From Flavobacteriaceae bacterium NBU2973 (GTDB lineage: Bacteria > Bacteroidota > Bacteroidia > Flavobacteriales > Flavobacteriaceae): a stretch of 64,000 bases of DNA. Within the stretch, counting starts at the first letter, position 1. Each line of letters starts with the position of its first letter. The stretch is taken from NCBI GenBank assembly GCA_026162565.1, contig JAOEIQ010000006.1:124001-188000 (forward strand), read 5' to 3'. Made by a program: the position numbers and the translations under genes. This document shows positions 46,223 through 51,999 of this stretch, piece after piece. The notes beneath the pieces are model-generated. The model ran no database searches. It saw only the letters and a list, made by a program, of their open reading frames with translations, and was not told where the DNA came from.

Positions 46223-46687
46223 ATGGAAAAAGAACAAACAAAAACAAGAAACATGCAAGACAAAAACAATAAGACTTCTACTTCAGCAGAAAAAAGAGTA
46301 ACACCAAGAGGTGCTTATCCTCACGTAAAAATTGTGGGCGATTTTATTTTTGTATCAGGAACCAGTTCTCGAAGACCAGATAACACAATTGCTGGAGTTG
46401 ATATTATTGATGAGATGGGAACCAAACGTTTAAATATAGAAACGCAAACTCGAGAAGTGTTAAAAAACATTGACAAAAACCTACAAACAGTTGGAGCTAG
46501 TATAAAAGATGTTGTAGATGTATCTACATTTCTGGTTAACATGAATGACTTTGCTGGTTATAACAAAGCTTATGCCGAGTTTTTTGATGCAGCAACTGGA
46601 CCAACCAGAACTACAGTTGCTGTACACCAATTACCACATCCAGATTTAGTAGTAGAAATAAAGGTGACTGCTTATAAAAAAAGATGA
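46223..46687 (+). CDS. RidA-family protein, probable 2-aminomuconate deaminase
   Basis: A 154-residue protein of the RidA/YjgF family with an unusually polar N-terminal extension of about 30 residues (many K, N, Q, T); an ATG at 46253 would remove part of it. Core segments [54 protein letters not shown] (as [17 protein letters not shown]) and [26 protein letters not shown] are typical, with the Arg of GPTRTT. In this cluster the logical reaction is deamination of 2-aminomuconate, as for bacterial NbaF/AmnD; a general enamine deaminase is the alternative. Confidence 0.82.
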
Positions 46688-46697
46688 TAACCAATAC

Positions 46698-46799
46698 GTC
46701 AGTTCGAGTATTTTGCAAAGTAAAATGTATCGAGAACTCAATTAGAAACTAAATTACTTCTCGATACAATTTAAATAAATTGAAATTACTCGAAGCGAC
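46698..46799. repeat. Palindromic repeat element, family B (nested TTCGAGTA / TATCGAGAA stems)
   Basis: Outer arms TTCGAGTA (46703-46710) / TACTCGAA (46787-46794) and inner arms TGTATCGAGAA (46726-46736) / TTCTCGATACA (46758-46768) are perfectly complementary, flanked by GTC and GAC. I recognise the style as a dispersed flavobacterial palindrome. It fills most of the gap between ridA and the first DUF6090 gene. Confidence 0.65.
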
Positions 46800-46888
46800 A
46801 ATTTGTAACATTATACTATCTTTAAACACATATAGTTAACCAACCTCAACTCACCATCAACCTAATTTGCTTTCAAAATAGAAAGTGA

Positions 46889-47968
46889 ATGATCAAATTC
46901 TTCCGTCGAATTAGACGCAGACTCCTCTCCGAGAATAAATTTAGTAAGTATCTACTCTATGCTATTGGAGAAATTTTTCTTGTAGTTATTGGTATTATGA
47001 TTGCCCTACAAGCCAACAATTGGAACGAAAAGCGTAAGCTTAATAATACCATTGAAACTCTTATTGATAAAGTTGAAAATGATGTTATTGCTGATATCAA
47101 AGATGTAAATAGTGAAATTTCATTTAATGAAGAGCGAGAACTCATGATGCAACGTATTTTAAAAAAGGAGGTAACGAAAGACGATTATCGCCAGTTTAAA
47201 TATTACGAGATACTCTTTAACTATTCCGATTTTAATCCCAACACCGAAAATTTAGATAAATTATTGGTGTTAGAAGAAGCTGTTAAACCAAAGTATTTAC
47301 CAATTATTAAAGCTATTAAAAGTCTTAAAGGTCGTAAACAATACAAAGATTTAGCTTGGAATGATTTACAAAAAGCATTTACCAACAATATAGATTACTA
47401 TTCTTTAAGTGATAAAGATTTAATTTTTAAAAGAGACTCTAGTAGTATTGAAAAAACAATCAACTTTTATCTCACAGATAGTAACTATATTAATCGAGTA
47501 AATAATTATAGTATCAAAAACCACAACGTTCTATTCGAAGAGAGAATAGCTAGAGCCAGGTTAATTAACATATTAGTACAAATAAAACAAGTAAAGCATC
47601 AATTTAATAAAAATGAGTTATTAAGCTTACTTACTACATTAAACCTTAATCACTATAAAGAAGTTGCTTGTAATAGTACCGCAAAAGATTATCTAAATCT
47701 CAAGGGCACAAGACAAAGACTATTAATTTTCAACACTAGTAAAGATAACTTATCTGTAAAAGTTACAGATAAATACGATAATAAATTAGATGAATTTAAA
47801 TTAAAACCTGGAGTAACTGAAAAACATGAAACTTGGCGTGGAGGTTTACTTAATGGAGGTGACTATTCCAAAGTGATAAGCGTATACAACGATAACAACT
47901 GTATAGCAAAGTTTACTGAAGAACTTAATGGTTATATTATAATTGATAATACAATAGTCAATGATTAA
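46889..47968 (+). CDS. DUF6090 membrane protein, first of four tandem paralogues
   Basis: A 359-residue protein, the longest of the array. Basic N-terminus MIKFFRRIRRRLLSENKFSKYLLYA, then one membrane helix within IGEIFLVVIGIMIALQANNWNE (about 27-45, read here as IGEIFLVVIGIMIALQ), then a long helical periplasmic part and a C-terminal beta-like tail (about 260-359) that the other three copies lack. This N-terminal anchor defines the DUF6090 family of Flavobacteriia; function unknown. Its end overlaps the next copy by 8 bases. Confidence 0.8.
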   Translation: MIKFFRRIRRRLLSENKFSKYLLYAIGEIFLVVIGIMIALQANNWNEKRKLNNTIETLIDKVENDVIADIKDVNSEISFNEERELMMQRILKKEVTKDDYRQFKYYEILFNYSDFNPNTENLDKLLVLEEAVKPKYLPIIKAIKSLKGRKQYKDLAWNDLQKAFTNNIDYYSLSDKDLIFKRDSSSIEKTINFYLTDSNYINRVNNYSIKNHNVLFEERIARARLINILVQIKQVKHQFNKNELLSLLTTLNLNHYKEVACNSTAKDYLNLKGTRQRLLIFNTSKDNLSVKVTDKYDNKLDEFKLKPGVTEKHETWRGGLLNGGDYSKVISVYNDNNCIAKFTEELNGYIIIDNTIVND

Positions 47969-48677
47969 ATTCTTCAGACATATTCGTAAATCATTAATTG
48001 AACAAAATAAAATGGGAAAATACTTTAAATATGCCATTGGCGAAATACTATTGGTAGTTATAGGAATCCTGATTGCTTTACAAATTAATAATTGGAATGA
48101 CATAAGAAAAAACAAAGCCTATGAGAAAGAAATCCTAACGATTATAAATAAAAACCTAATAAGCGATTCTATAAACTTGTCAATTGAATTAAATAAATCC
48201 AGAGTGTCTAACGAGTTAACCAGTAGACTTTTAAAACAAGTGAGTTCAGGATTTATTAGCGATAGTTTGAACAATTGGTTAGGGAAAATAATTTCTTTTG
48301 AACGTTTTAAATCGCAATCCAGTGCCTTTGAAGTTTTAAAATCAAAAGGTATAGATATTATTTCTGATACAGAATTGCAACTCGAGTTAATTAGTTACTA
48401 CGATCAGAGTGTAAATGATATTTATGTAGCGCATAAGGATGTTGAAGAATCTTTCAAAAAAGATTGGGATCCAATAATTCAAGAGGAATTTTCAGATTAC
48501 AGATGGCGTCAATATGCTATTCCAAATGACCCAGAAGCATTTCTTGAAAAAAAACCAATCATTAGTTTTTTAAGGTTTTATAGAGAAAATAGATCTAGCG
48601 GTGAAATTAATTCAGAATTAGCACTAGAAAAAATATCAAAAATCAGAAGGCTATCTAAAAAGTACATTAATGATTAA
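47961..48677 (+). CDS. DUF6090 membrane protein, second paralogue
   Basis: 238 residues. N-terminus MIKFFRHIRKSLIEQNKMGK and helix IGEILLVVIGILIALQINNW are almost the same as in copies three and four, while the rest (LLKQVSSGFISDSLN, FEVLKSKGIDIISDTELQ) shows little resemblance. Predicted topology is a short basic cytoplasmic tail, one helix and a helical periplasmic domain. Overlaps its neighbours by 8 bases on both sides. Confidence 0.8.
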   Translation: MIKFFRHIRKSLIEQNKMGKYFKYAIGEILLVVIGILIALQINNWNDIRKNKAYEKEILTIINKNLISDSINLSIELNKSRVSNELTSRLLKQVSSGFISDSLNNWLGKIISFERFKSQSSAFEVLKSKGIDIISDTELQLELISYYDQSVNDIYVAHKDVEESFKKDWDPIIQEEFSDYRWRQYAIPNDPEAFLEKKPIISFLRFYRENRSSGEINSELALEKISKIRRLSKKYIND

Positions 48678-49407
48678 ATTCTTCAGACATATACGCAAAT
48701 CACTAATCCAAGAAAACAAAATGGGTAAATACTTTAAGTACGCCATTGGTGAAATCTTACTTGTTGTAATTGGAATTCTAATAGCACTTCAAATAAACAA
48801 TTGGAATGAAGCTAGAAAAGCCAAACTAAACGAGTTCGCTAAACTTAACAAACTACTCGAAGATTTAAAGTTAGATTCTATTGCTTTTGATAAAAACATT
48901 AAAGTACTTTCTAAAATAAATGACCTACACCAGCAACTTTATCGTATTGGATTTAAAGGTTCTAAACAATCATTAACCGAAAATCCAAATAGTATTAGAC
49001 AATATGTAACTCTTGAAGCACCCAGCTTAAAAACCTCGCCTCTATTAACCAGTCAACTGAATAATGAAATTATACGAAAAGAACTTATTGATTATAATGA
49101 AGATTTAAACCTTGGAATAATAGAAATGAATGAGTTTGCAAGCATTGTTAAAGATAAAATAAGACCCTATTTAGGCCAGAAAGAAGCCTATAATTTATCC
49201 AGTCAGTTTGAGATTCTAGATGCCGAAAAAGTAAATATGATTACTAAAGAAGACCTTATTAAAATAAGTAAACAAGTTGAATTTCAACAAATTCTATTTG
49301 AAGTAAATCTTAAATTAAAATCCAATTTATACCATATTAAAAATGAAAGTTTAACACGTAATAGCAGACTCCGAAGTTTAATAATTAATGAACTTAACAA
49401 TTATTAA
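48670..49407 (+). CDS. DUF6090 membrane protein, third paralogue
   Basis: 245 residues; N-terminus MIKFFRHIRKSLIQENKMGK and the same helix as copy two. The DNA for this part differs from copy two mostly at third codon positions, so the amino-acid sequence is conserved by selection rather than by recent copying. The C-terminal part (LKTSPLLTSQLNNEIIRKELIDYNED) is its own. Stop overlaps the next start by one base. Confidence 0.8.
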   Translation: MIKFFRHIRKSLIQENKMGKYFKYAIGEILLVVIGILIALQINNWNEARKAKLNEFAKLNKLLEDLKLDSIAFDKNIKVLSKINDLHQQLYRIGFKGSKQSLTENPNSIRQYVTLEAPSLKTSPLLTSQLNNEIIRKELIDYNEDLNLGIIEMNEFASIVKDKIRPYLGQKEAYNLSSQFEILDAEKVNMITKEDLIKISKQVEFQQILFEVNLKLKSNLYHIKNESLTRNSRLRSLIINELNNY

Positions 49408-50144
49408 TGCTAAAATTTTTTCGTCATATACGTCGCTCACTAATCCAAGAAAATGAAATGGGAAAATATTTTAAATACGCCATTGGCGAAATATTGTTGG
49501 TTGTAATAGGAATCCTAATTGCATTACAAATAAATAATTGGAACGAAGAAAAAAAAGCCAGAGACAAAGAGCGACAAGTACTCACAGAAATTATTTCGGA
49601 TTTAGAGTATACAGTATTAGATTTAGATAGAGTTATTAATACAAGAACCAATAACCTTAAGAGAACTATTAATTCTATACAAACTATTATTACTACACTA
49701 GAAAAAGACGATCCATACCATGATTCTTTAGCCTACCATTTTAGAGCAGTCAATGCTTATGACAATATCGATTTCAAAACGAGCGGTTATGAATCTTTGA
49801 TATCCATAGGAACAGATCTCATACAAAATCCGGAACTTCGATCTGCAATTGGAAAATTCCATACCTCTTCAGCTAATAGTACTGAAGGAGCTTTTCAAGA
49901 AGTCCATTTAGATTTTTATAGTTATATGATCGATTATTACAGAAAAAATTTTAATACCGTTTTTGTTAATGAAACTCTAGATAAATTGGTACCTATTGAT
50001 TTTGAAGCCCTCAAAAACGACAAGGAATATATACAATCATTAAAAACTTGGTTAGGCGTTAATATTCCTTATCTCGAGATATTAAATAGCACCAAAGAGG
50101 AAGCTGAACAATTAAAAAAAGACATAGAAGATTATTTGAAATAA
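49407..50144 (+). CDS. DUF6090 membrane protein, fourth paralogue
   Basis: 245 residues; N-terminus MLKFFRHIRRSLIQENEMGK, helix IGEILLVVIGILIALQINNW. The periplasmic part has FKTSGYESLISIGTDLIQNPELRSAIGKFH, which resembles a segment of copy two (FEVLKSKGIDIISDTELQLELISYYD), hinting at a common fold. It ends the array; the inverted repeat of the GIY-YIG unit starts 24 bases later. Confidence 0.8.
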   Translation: MLKFFRHIRRSLIQENEMGKYFKYAIGEILLVVIGILIALQINNWNEEKKARDKERQVLTEIISDLEYTVLDLDRVINTRTNNLKRTINSIQTIITTLEKDDPYHDSLAYHFRAVNAYDNIDFKTSGYESLISIGTDLIQNPELRSAIGKFHTSSANSTEGAFQEVHLDFYSYMIDYYRKNFNTVFVNETLDKLVPIDFEALKNDKEYIQSLKTWLGVNIPYLEILNSTKEEAEQLKKDIEDYLK

Positions 50145-50167
50145 GCTATCTTGTGATTACTAGATAA

Positions 50168-50553
50168 TGTCAGGTCGAGCGCAGTCGAGACCTCAATAAA
50201 TTAAGAAAGTGAACTTATATTATGTATACATACTACAATGTGCAGATGGACTCACATACACTGGTGTTACTAATAATGTGTCTAGAAGATTTGAAGAACA
50301 TCAAAAAGGCTTAAATAAAAACTGTTTTACATATAAAAGAAGACCTCTAAAATTAATTTTTCAACAAGAATTTAACGATATTGAGCAAGCAATTTTCTTT
50401 GAAAAGAAAATAAAAAATTGGAGCGCAAAAAAGAAACTGGCTTTGGCACATGGGGAATATGATTTGTTGCAAATTTTATCTGAATGTAGAAATGCAACAC
50501 ATTCTAAATATAATCCAGACATAAAATAGGTCTCGACTGCGCTCGACCAGACA
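50168..50553. repeat. 26-bp inverted repeats flanking the GIY-YIG gene
   Basis: The left arm (50168-50193) and the right arm (50528-50553) are reverse complements over 26 bp with a single mismatch. Each arm is itself partly palindromic (core TCGAGCGCAGTCGA). The arms exactly bracket the GIY-YIG frame: the right arm overlaps the stop codon and ends three bases before the next ATG. Confidence 0.85.
50209..50529 (+). CDS. GIY-YIG nuclease-domain protein
   Basis: A 106-residue single-domain protein starting at GTG 50209. The GIY-YIG motif appears as YVYILQCADGLTYTGVTNN, with the catalytic-type Arg in SRRFEEH and the Glu in AIFFEKKIKNWS. Small stand-alone GIY-YIG proteins of this type (UPF0213/YhbQ-like) are frequent in Bacteroidetes in multiple copies. 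The perfect inverted repeats around it suggest the gene moves with, or is moved by, the palindromic element. It is unlikely to take part in tryptophan breakdown. Confidence 0.88.
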   Translation: MNLYYVYILQCADGLTYTGVTNNVSRRFEEHQKGLNKNCFTYKRRPLKLIFQQEFNDIEQAIFFEKKIKNWSAKKKLALAHGEYDLLQILSECRNATHSKYNPDIK

Positions 50554-50556
50554 AAA

Positions 50557-51999
50557 ATGGAAAACATTCAAAACTACATAAACGGTCAATTTACAAATCC
50601 AGTTAGCGACGATTGGATAGACAATTACAATCCAGCAAGTGGCGAAGTGTATAGCCAAATTCCTAACTCATCTAAAGATGATGTTGAGAATGCTTACAAA
50701 TCTGCAAAGTCTGCCTTTAAGCAATGGTCTCAAACAACATTAGAAGAGCGCAGCAGAATTATGCTTAAAATTTCAGAACTCATTGAAACAAATTTAGACC
50801 GACTCGCGGAAGCAGAAAGTAAAGACAATGGTAAACCGTTATGGTTAGCAAAAGCTGTAGACATACCGAGAGCCTCTAGTAATTTTCGCTTTTTCGCCAA
50901 TGCCATTACGCAATTTGCAAGCGAAAGCCACGAGAGTGTTGGGCAAAATGCTATAAACTACACGCTGCGCCAACCGATTGGTGTTGTAGGTTGTATCAGT
51001 CCATGGAACCTACCACTCTACCTCTTTACTTGGAAAATTGCACCAGCAATTGCTGCAGGCAACTGTGTAGTCGCTAAACCAAGTGAAGTCACTCCCATGA
51101 CAGCCTATTTACTTGGTGAAATTTGTAATGAAGCAGGTTTACCTAAAGGTGTATTAAACATTGTTCATGGTCTAGGAGGTTCAACTGGTCAAGCCATTGT
51201 AGAGAATCCAGATATTAAAGCCATAAGTTTTACAGGTGGTACAGCAACTGGTGCTCATATTGCTAGAACAGCTGCTCCAATGTTTAAAAAACTATCACTC
51301 GAACTAGGCGGAAAAAACCCAAACATTATTTTTGCAGATTGTGATTATGATGATATGTTAACAACAACGGTACGTTCATCGTTTGCTAATCAAGGACAAA
51401 TATGCTTGTGTGGTAGTCGTATTTTTGTAGAAGATAGTATCTATGAAAAATTTAAAACAGATTTTGTAGATCGAGTTAAACACTTAAAAGTTGGACATCC
51501 TTCTAATGCAGACACTAAAGTTGGCGCTTTAGTCTCTAAACCACATTTGAAGAAAGTAATGAGTTATATTGATATTGCCAAAGATGAAGGTGGCACCATT
51601 TTGTGTGGAGGTAATAGAATTACAATTGAAGGTTACGAAGATGGTTATTATTTACAACCCACTGTTATCGAAGTACTTTCCGACGAATGTCGTGTTAATC
51701 AAGAAGAAATATTTGGTCCTGTCGTAACAATAATGTCTTTTAGTTCTGAACAAGAGGTTTTAGCTATGGCTAATAAAGTGGACTATGGATTATCTGCTAC
51801 CTTATGGACTAACGATTTAAAACGCACCATGCGAATGAGTACCCAGTTACAAGCAGGCATTATTTGGGTAAATACCTGGCTCATGCGAGATTTACGGACG
51901 CCATTTGGTGGTGTAAAAAATTCTGGTGTTGGTCGTGAAGGAGGTTTTGAAGCTCTACGCTTTTTTACCGAAGCAAAAAATGTATGTATAAAATATTAA
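50557..51999 (+). CDS. 2-aminomuconate semialdehyde dehydrogenase-type aldehyde dehydrogenase
   Basis: A 480-residue NAD-dependent ALDH. Active-site features: CISPWNLPLYLFTWKIAP, the glycine loop SFTGGTATGAHIA (about 227-239), LELGGKNPNIIFADCD with the general base Glu, and the nucleophilic cysteine in NQGQICLCGSRIFVE (about 283-297). The QICLCGSR variant is seen in the 2-hydroxymuconic and 2-aminomuconic semialdehyde group, which agrees with its place between RidA and haaO. The ATG lies three bases after the inverted repeat. Confidence 0.9.
   Translation: MENIQNYINGQFTNPVSDDWIDNYNPASGEVYSQIPNSSKDDVENAYKSAKSAFKQWSQTTLEERSRIMLKISELIETNLDRLAEAESKDNGKPLWLAKAVDIPRASSNFRFFANAITQFASESHESVGQNAINYTLRQPIGVVGCISPWNLPLYLFTWKIAPAIAAGNCVVAKPSEVTPMTAYLLGEICNEAGLPKGVLNIVHGLGGSTGQAIVENPDIKAISFTGGTATGAHIARTAAPMFKKLSLELGGKNPNIIFADCDYDDMLTTTVRSSFANQGQICLCGSRIFVEDSIYEKFKTDFVDRVKHLKVGHPSNADTKVGALVSKPHLKKVMSYIDIAKDEGGTILCGGNRITIEGYEDGYYLQPTVIEVLSDECRVNQEEIFGPVVTIMSFSSEQEVLAMANKVDYGLSATLWTNDLKRTMRMSTQLQAGIIWVNTWLMRDLRTPFGGVKNSGVGREGGFEALRFFTEAKNVCIKY

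Follow-up and report, generated by a model that had tools for sequence, protein, structure and literature searches.

Polyimmunity loci, as described in PMC3482391, are same-strand tandems of distant paralogues with close spacing and no toxin genes in between, and their number and type vary among relatives; the proteins are nearly all cytoplasmic, usually come from one locus per genome and are identified by their toxin neighbours. The rAID arrays of Bacteroidales are presented in PMC12247911 as recombinase-associated orphan type VI secretion system (T6SS) immunity genes, for example SUKH-domain genes, that protect from neighbours. Here we describe four consecutive genes of the family DUF6090, named D1 to D4, in a stretch of 64,000 nucleotides from Flavobacteriaceae bacterium NBU2973 (contig JAOEIQ010000006.1, positions 124,001 to 188,000; hereafter the window). 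Comparison of related genes demonstrated at the sequence level that DUF6090 genes are mosaics, in which an anchor and an ectodomain have separate histories and have been re-paired. The whole is best explained, with a probability of roughly 0.6, by two-module genes in which an interchangeable anchor recombines with a large pool of ectodomains, forming a standing recognition repertoire.

Two-module architecture of the DUF6090 proteins

The four genes, as given in the list of open reading frames (ORFs), and their constant anchor modules are the following.

46889..47968, + strand: D1, DUF6090-type gene, 359 aa, Pfam score 20.4 bits; constant anchor, ectodomain of helical type and C-terminal extension
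46889..47026, + strand: constant anchor module of D1 (codons 1-46)
47961..48677, + strand: D2, DUF6090 gene, 238 aa, Pfam score 25.7 bits
47961..48098, + strand: constant anchor module of D2, the first 8 bases of which, ATGATTAA, overlie the end of D1 and supply its stop
48670..49407, + strand: D3, DUF6090 gene, 245 aa, Pfam score 43.2 bits
48670..48807, + strand: constant anchor module of D3, the first 8 bases of which overlie the end of D2 and supply its stop
49407..50144, + strand: D4, DUF6090 gene, 245 aa, Pfam score 39.2 bits
49407..49544, + strand: constant anchor module of D4, which shares 1 base with the D3 stop

A preliminary description of this DNA had reported four consecutive overlapping genes with a shared N-terminal block followed by divergence, and the ORFs at 46889-50144 bear this out: the overlaps D1/D2, D2/D3 and D3/D4 are 8, 8 and 1 bases, a block of about 46 residues (DUF6090) is common to D1-D4, and the remainders are divergent. 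The number four is correct for the locus and understates the genome, where DUF6090 was matched 33 times at 11 places, with ten matches in the largest array. The host genome is near Winogradskyella, its GyrB being 91-94% identical to that of five genomes of the genus and 94% identical to that of a Jejuia metagenome-assembled genome (MAG). D2, D3 and D4 pass the Pfam cut-off for DUF6090 (PF19578, 23.5 bits); D1 falls slightly under it, and its anchor is clearly of the same kind as the other three. As the PF19578 match begins at residue 28 of the window proteins, the cytoplasmic part of the anchor lies outside the Pfam model. The entry gives DUF6090 without a function, as the preliminary description had also stated, no paper that names the family turned up in the literature searched, and D1-D4 had no match at E<0.01 in NCBIfam or PHROGs.

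The product of a DUF6090 gene is a two-module membrane protein, in which the anchor (codons 1 to about 46) consists of a short basic cytoplasmic helix and one transmembrane (TM) helix that ends at NNWNE, and the ectodomain follows. According to the positive-inside rule, basic residues before a TM helix place the N-terminus in the cytoplasm and the C-terminus in the periplasm, and because basic residues precede the TM helix, this orientation is predicted for the DUF6090 proteins. A second TM-like segment after residue 60 was present in 0/462 proteins, in agreement with the constant anchor and divergent periplasmic part of the preliminary description, and the commonest residue accounted on average for 82% of these proteins at anchor positions and 29% at ectodomain positions. 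R9, Y21, Y24, L31, G35, I36 and A39 were invariant in 435 in-register proteins, and so was E28, by which the register was chosen. Between residues 20 and 45 the conservation is focused on a single helix face (Y21, A25, E28, V32, G35, I36, A39, N43), with a moment that was matched by 5/5000 shuffles at 100 degrees per residue and by 139/5000 at 102.9. This invariant face fits the common membrane partner that had been proposed for the anchor, and it fits self-association as well; an interface common to the anchors is plausible. Cyclobacteriaceae have a second anchor type (L055:6876-7628, L056:6775-7518, L059:6835-7557 and L103:2740-3456) that keeps E...LV...IGI...A...NNWNE and differs in the rest of the sequence, cytoplasmic part included. 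In the ectodomains of the 462 proteins a weak pattern, approximately S-G-L-x-x-I-x-N at 134-141, suggests common descent.

The AlphaFold2 (AF2) model of D4 (pLDDT 92.8, pTM 0.79) begins with a helix at residues 2-14, followed by one at 18-78 that extends out of the membrane into the periplasm. It further has a helical bundle and, at 182-196, a beta hairpin. Foldseek searches with the model gave no significant match (best E 0.033 in PDB and 0.23 in a viral library), and the D4 sequence had no match in PDB at E<1. VIA-align put the model among helical bundles and listed the chemoreceptor ligand domains Tar (Z 8.7), Tsr (8.5) and PcaY (8.5), all within the Z 8-9 range that its own note gives as possible noise for helical bundles. 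The D1 model is poor (pLDDT 63.9), with the C-terminal extension of about 100 residues (257-359) under 50. Proteins of about 350 aa that carry a C-terminal extension form a subclass, with members at window 46889-47968, L031:7522-8571, L031:9350-10411 and L227:10877-11929.

The proportions of synonymous (pS) and non-synonymous (pN) differences in the anchor block were 0.64-0.81 and 0.04-0.07 among D2-D4, consistent with the earlier statement that the block shared by these copies is old and held by selection; for D1 against D2-D4 they were 0.85-0.88 and 0.21-0.23. Among 32 own-genome paralogues the anchor had a pS of 0.75 and a pN of 0.14 and the rest 0.67 and 0.61, and because synonymous sites are near saturation, selection on the rest is not judgeable from them. 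In 17 recent pairs the pooled ratio of non-synonymous to synonymous rates (dN/dS) was 0.07 in the anchor as compared to 0.21 in the ectodomain, which supports strong constraint on the anchor, a comparison to be read with the different histories of the two parts in mind.

Re-pairing of anchors and ectodomains

In a gene that is inherited whole, anchor and ectodomain diverge together, and this premise underlies the comparison of the two parts. Ectodomains were more than 60% identical in 85 gene pairs, 31 of which had an ectodomain pS<0.6. In these 31 recent pairs the pS was 0.64 for the anchor versus 0.40 for the ectodomain, the anchor value exceeding that of the ectodomain in 30, of which 25 had a margin of more than 0.1. 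When each gene was used once, anchor pS was above ectodomain pS in 21/22 pairs (sign test, p 1e-5), and by more than 0.1 in 17/22 pairs as compared to 4/31 pairs of ordinary genes with a higher 5' end, these controls not being reduced to one use per gene (Fisher p 3e-6). That control set came from the first 400 of 489 pairs, of which 31 qualified; a second set, from at most 500 alignments out of 3742 candidate pairs, gave 6/30, with 30 qualified pairs of which 4 had an N-terminal TM-like segment. Neither set showed the excess seen in the DUF6090 pairs, and neither was limited to membrane proteins. The anchor tests need codons 27-28 in register, for which 289/304 and 434/462 genes were used and insert-bearing anchors were excluded.

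The same relation is seen where arrays occupy corresponding positions, most clearly in one pair of loci. Locus L061 of Gaetbulibacter sp. S0825 and locus L253 of genome G230 (Flavobacteriaceae S0862) belong to genomes with 100% identical GyrB proteins and a GyrB pS of 0.18, and the ORFs flanking the two arrays are 94% identical. In four syntenic gene pairs of these loci the ectodomain pS was 0.12-0.41 and the anchor pS 0.44-0.58, and the pN was 0.016-0.047 and 0.055-0.178, respectively. Such divergent anchors on closely similar syntenic ectodomains mean that the anchors were replaced in place after the two genomes had parted. Over all syntenic orthologues anchor pS was above ectodomain pS in 12/12 pairs, and amino-acid-changing divergence was higher in the anchor in 10/12. 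In six pairs that were aligned base by base the identity climbs within the anchor or at its end, the step being sharpest near codon 40 in L055/L059 and L081/L096, where identity drops again at the constant block of the next gene; in L055_8605/L059_7585 it remains high past the gene end, and in L040/L088 the step is blurred. The two modules are thus joined close to where the anchor ends. For 21 between-genome pairs with ectodomains at least 70% identical, the anchor DNA identity averaged 73%, the baselines being 73% for unlike paralogues of one genome or locus and 67% between genomes, averages for which only own-genome loci were merged.

The converse, like anchors on unlike ectodomains, was also found. 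Of 25 anchor pairs with at least 90% DNA identity, 16 were within one genome, and in these 16 an ectodomain match over 100 aa was absent in 14 and amounted to 28% in one and 46% in another; codon-column shuffles within genomes gave a mean of 0.01 such anchor pairs, with a maximum of 1. A change of anchor length before the TM helix occurs in 25/460 genes, of which 16 have a 7-residue insert, often a palindrome. In Winogradskyella aurantia (G226) the same kind of insert, 21 bases long, is present in the anchors of 8/41 genes fetched, four of which are identical over 45 bases around it, and any BLAST match was obtained for only 2/28 of the ectodomain pairs of these tagged genes. The insert is thus a natural tag, and as it is shared by genes with unlike ectodomains, the anchors must have been re-paired within genomes. 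The 7-residue insert stands in frame at nearly the same place of the anchor linker across several genera, often as a CCTGCC...GGCAGG palindrome; loci that bear it are L031:11200-11958, L055, L065, L071, L122, L243, L246 and L247.

The two modules also differ in where their nearest relatives are. The nearest ectodomain was in the same genome for 23/458 genes (shuffled mean 20.5, maximum 37), and the nearest anchor for 163/434 (shuffled mean 19.3, maximum 34), about eightfold over chance. The genome labels of this test were set by hand (68 among the anchors), and some loci of one genome are maybe unmerged in it. Two ectodomain types are common to different classes. L065 (Croceitalea, Flavobacteriia) and L084 (Portibacter, Saprospiria) have ectodomains that are 80% identical with a pS of 0.55, versus 65% and 0.90 for GyrB; the corresponding values are 79% and 0.71 versus 65% and 0.76 for L084/L122, and 75% and 0.36 versus 82% and 0.89 for L057/L065. 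These comparisons suggest that certain ectodomain types passed from one lineage to another. In many other listed pairs the ectodomain protein is less alike than GyrB, as expected for a fast-changing part.

Arrays, their distribution and the kynurenine-operon site

DUF6090 matches were found in 21/60 genomes, own genome counted, with 0 to 77 copies per genome elsewhere and 12 to 77 in each of nine chosen genomes. A sample of the phylum Bacteroidota had matches in 56/395 genomes and 37/171 genera; at most 8 candidates were scored per genome in it, so that its copy numbers are lower bounds. The 77 loci of relatives that were studied represent the best 80 of 567 confirmed matches and lean towards relatives of D3. 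With D3 alone as query, tblastn gave no match in phages or plasmids, and an alignment scan of viral contigs gave 101 pattern matches, none of them a relative. One DUF6090 match lies in a MAG labelled KSB1 (L080), which is possibly misbinned.

No fetched locus had an array on both strands. Out of 233 consecutive gene pairs 193 were within 200 bases and 99 overlapped, 55 of them by 8 bases and 37 by 4. The gene start reads NTGATNAA in 259/319 genes, and a block of this kind ends any upstream frame that enters it, since ATGATTAA contains a stop in both other frames; a join upstream therefore yields a terminated pair, and such pairs are probably translationally coupled. Short anchored ORFs (<180 aa) made up 22/484 distinct ones, and the others look complete. 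Two copies in the own genome are decayed, a short ORF with a repeat-like insert (L031:6555-6779) and a copy with an internal stop (G000:C21:387258-387614). Co-orientation with neighbours (upstream 88/101, downstream 86/106) was not clearly special when set beside control pairs (373/472). When a shared neighbour gene was sought beside the arrays, mainly the sites themselves recurred, namely the kynurenine site and genes which we take to be nqr, the latter adjoining DUF6090 genes in five genomes (L034, L074, L097, L116 and L129). Around one lipoprotein-like hydrolase, 16 ORFs in 13 loci were chained among the array neighbours.

In the window the array lies inside a kynurenine breakdown operon with genes for kynureninase, an FAD mono-oxygenase-type protein (presumably kmo), an SDR protein and 3-hydroxyanthranilate dioxygenase. 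Its nearest neighbours are the following.

46223-46687: ridA, upstream of the DUF6090 array
50209-50529: GIY-YIG gene, between D4 and the aldehyde dehydrogenase gene (ALDH)
50557-51999: ALDH, downstream of the array and the GIY-YIG gene

The preliminary description had coupled the array to this catabolic cluster, a claim that the wider comparison does not support. From 96 non-own ALDH places 60 were fetched, one per genome and genus and the best by rank with G085 passed over; five of the stretches end at contig ends. ridA is upstream of ALDH in 59/60 genera, and DUF6090 genes lie between the two in 3/60; in a fourth (L188) the array is directly before ALDH and the contig starts there. Gaps between ridA and ALDH without DUF6090 have a median of 61 bases. 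Another ORF of at least 60 aa was present in 14/19 gaps examined, mostly long ones, and no decayed DUF6090 gene was found in these 19. The search biased towards D3 found DUF6090 at this junction in six more loci (L057, L066, L070, L076, L077 and L079); L068 was ruled out as a kynurenine site, its ALDH being only 27% identical. The catabolic context looks incidental, the array being a passenger in the kynurenine operon.

The arrays at the kynurenine site range from a single anchored ORF to 15, and their ectodomain types mostly differ. The 15 are those of W. flava (L227), which has relatives of all four window genes, with whole-protein identities of 84% for D3, 32% for D1 (350 aa, over 357 columns), 68% for D2 and 57% for D4, in the order D3, D1, D2, D4 and with other types interspersed. 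For the ectodomains alone, the W. flava relatives are 82% identical to D3 and 65% to D2, which also has relatives of 57% in L081 and 53% in L056. A D4-type gene recurs at the site in several genera, with ectodomain identities of 77% in L077, 74% in L164, 51% in L076 and 41% in L197, and most other members differ. The recurring D4 type and the relatives in L227 imply that this site has long been occupied in part of the family, while its contents and order turn over. As copy number, order and type change between genomes at the same site, the fixed stoichiometry or defined hetero-oligomer proposed earlier is not supported.

The ridA-ALDH junction (window 46688-50556; L159-L218) is filled by different ORFs according to genus, as if it were a general insertion spot. 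In other genera, relatives of the GIY-YIG gene occur elsewhere in the operon, at the ALDH-SDR, ridA-ALDH and KMO-ridA junctions, as if mobile within it, and the own genome has eight GIY-YIG matches including the window copy, one of which adjoins another DUF6090 array (L037:5758-6111).

Proposed repertoire, alternatives and related systems

In the explanation that we favour, the second module of each gene would be drawn from a very large pool of helical ectodomains that lie in the periplasm. Exchange would proceed by ordinary homologous recombination confined to a block of about 140 bases, because this block is the only DNA shared by unlike paralogues. Since anchors are exchanged, each ectodomain has to function with many of them, and the anchor would therefore be a generic docking or dimerising part that serves all ectodomains, which in turn may recognise diverse things. 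Translational coupling of the array genes would let a cell display many ectodomains at once. Within types the ectodomain dN/dS is well below 1, presence is patchy and copy number differs greatly. The targets of the repertoire would most likely be agents that enter the periplasm, such as toxins, bacteriocins or phage components; a defence-type recognition is nevertheless a tentative suggestion. The fuller proposal, of a combinatorial and horizontally shared repertoire with dozens of co-expressed receptors per cell, a phylum-wide ectodomain pool and a single shared anchor interface, is possible, and we would sooner bet against it than on it.

Several points weigh against the recombining repertoire. 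Change-points scatter, as of seven pairs with a log-likelihood gain of at least 5 four had them at codons 35-40 and the others at 56, 74 and 219, and one of the 31 recent pairs (L086/L229) is near-identical throughout. Codon usage that is shared within a genome adds to the similarity of its anchors. Incoming ectodomain cassettes and conversion of the resident anchor leave the same mosaic, and both may occur. Function, co-expression and oligomeric state are what we infer, and a defence role is read from the pattern. No toxin, defence or recombinase family recurs beside the arrays among the top-ranked neighbour families, for which the 25 commonest Pfam families were tallied in 70 of the 86 listed upstream neighbours and in 90 of the 99 downstream ones: neither tally has a recombinase family, and the only toxin by name is AAA_21 ('putative AbiEii toxin') in 2 downstream genes which, beside 2 matches each to ABC_tran and SMC_N, are perhaps plain ATPases. 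With PADLOC defence models, D1-D4 gave only two weak matches, both for D4 (E 0.007-0.008), and the 70 upstream neighbours gave PD-T4-2_B in 4, SoFic in one (E 2e-120) and nine other models once each.

Two alternatives dispense with exchange. An old and simple tandem duplication, which the preliminary description had named as a simple duplicated family, would make the copies local duplicates whose ectodomains drifted and whose anchors were held by purifying selection. Same-strand tandem arrays are common, and the anchor pN of 0.14 versus 0.61 in the own-genome paralogues accords with this, with synonymous sites near saturation in both parts. However, the best ectodomain relative is in the same genome only at chance level (23/458), insert-tagged anchors sit on unlike ectodomains, and the mosaic histories of the two parts are not those of local duplicates, so that we consider this improbable. 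An unusually high synonymous rate of the 5' block, by which recent orthologues would differ only there, would likewise give the excess of anchor pS in 12/12 syntenic orthologues. It leaves unexplained the near-identical anchors on unlike ectodomains of one genome (16 within-genome pairs versus 0.01 expected), a finding of the kind that refutes it, and the insert common to 8 paralogues, and amino-acid-changing divergence was also higher in the anchor in 10/12 syntenic pairs; we regard it as very improbable.

The other two concern function. DUF6090 proteins could be sensor subunits: ligand sensors of the helical-bundle type that lack an output domain and signal via the anchor to one shared inner-membrane partner, which is the idea of the preliminary description minus its fixed stoichiometry. 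The predicted continuity of the TM helix with the first bundle helix in the D4 model, the chemoreceptor ligand domains (Tar, Tsr, PcaY) listed by VIA-align and the invariant TM face with Glu28 speak for such a role, whereas the Z values of 8-9 are in the possible-noise range, the best Foldseek E was 0.033 and no candidate partner gene recurs beside the arrays; we hold this to be a serious rival that is nonetheless unlikely. A functional part in the kynurenine operon, by sensing or handling pathway intermediates, would account for the six loci of the D3-biased search and W. flava L227, which have DUF6090 genes between ridA and ALDH, and for the D4-type gene that recurs there. Yet only 4/60 genera chosen by ALDH alone have DUF6090 at the junction, with a median gap of 61 bases otherwise, other ORFs fill 14/19 of the long gaps examined, and the ten other DUF6090 places of the own genome are outside the operon, which makes such a part extremely unlikely.

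DUF6090, which reaches 77 copies in a genome, thus proves modular: its anchors and ectodomains have been re-paired, and some of the ectodomains apparently occur across classes. This pattern is typical of repertoires maintained for the sake of variety, immunity or recognition systems among them. Whole-protein trees of DUF6090 mix two histories. If the anchor is interchangeable, a single chimera should work with any ectodomain, and a single bait should retrieve the common partner, should there be one.

Among known systems, the ligand domains of Tar and Tsr resemble the modelled DUF6090 proteins in a TM helix that runs on into a periplasmic helical bundle, with middling structural similarity (VIA-align Z 8-8.7 for the D4 model, within the noise range, and Foldseek not significant). 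Unlike Tar and Tsr, DUF6090 proteins have no second TM-like segment (0/462) and hence no cytoplasmic signalling domain behind the bundle. In the pilE/pilS system a constant module recombines with alternative variable modules, and the same holds for vlsE; unlike in these systems, the DUF6090 ORFs showed neither silent cassettes nor a single expression site. Polymorphic toxins, as described in PMC3482391, likewise combine one constant module with alternative variable ones through recombination, and unlike polymorphic toxins and pilins, DUF6090 proteins show no sign of a toxin tip or pilin. With the rAID arrays, as PMC12247911 presents them, DUF6090 arrays share the grouping of divergent genes in Bacteroidota, whereas among the top-ranked neighbour families neither a recombinase nor SUKH-type immunity genes stood out beside them. 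The DUF6090 genes differ from polyimmunity loci in occurring at 11 places in one genome and in encoding membrane proteins with periplasmic domains and a constant anchor that is exchanged between copies. Like polyimmunity loci, which are their closest parallel in layout, DUF6090 arrays are tandem, in the same orientation and with small gaps (193/233 pairs within 200 bases), and gene number and type differ between relatives. The most likely function of the DUF6090 proteins would be that of a co-expressed repertoire of periplasm-facing recognition proteins, with a layout like that of polyimmunity loci.

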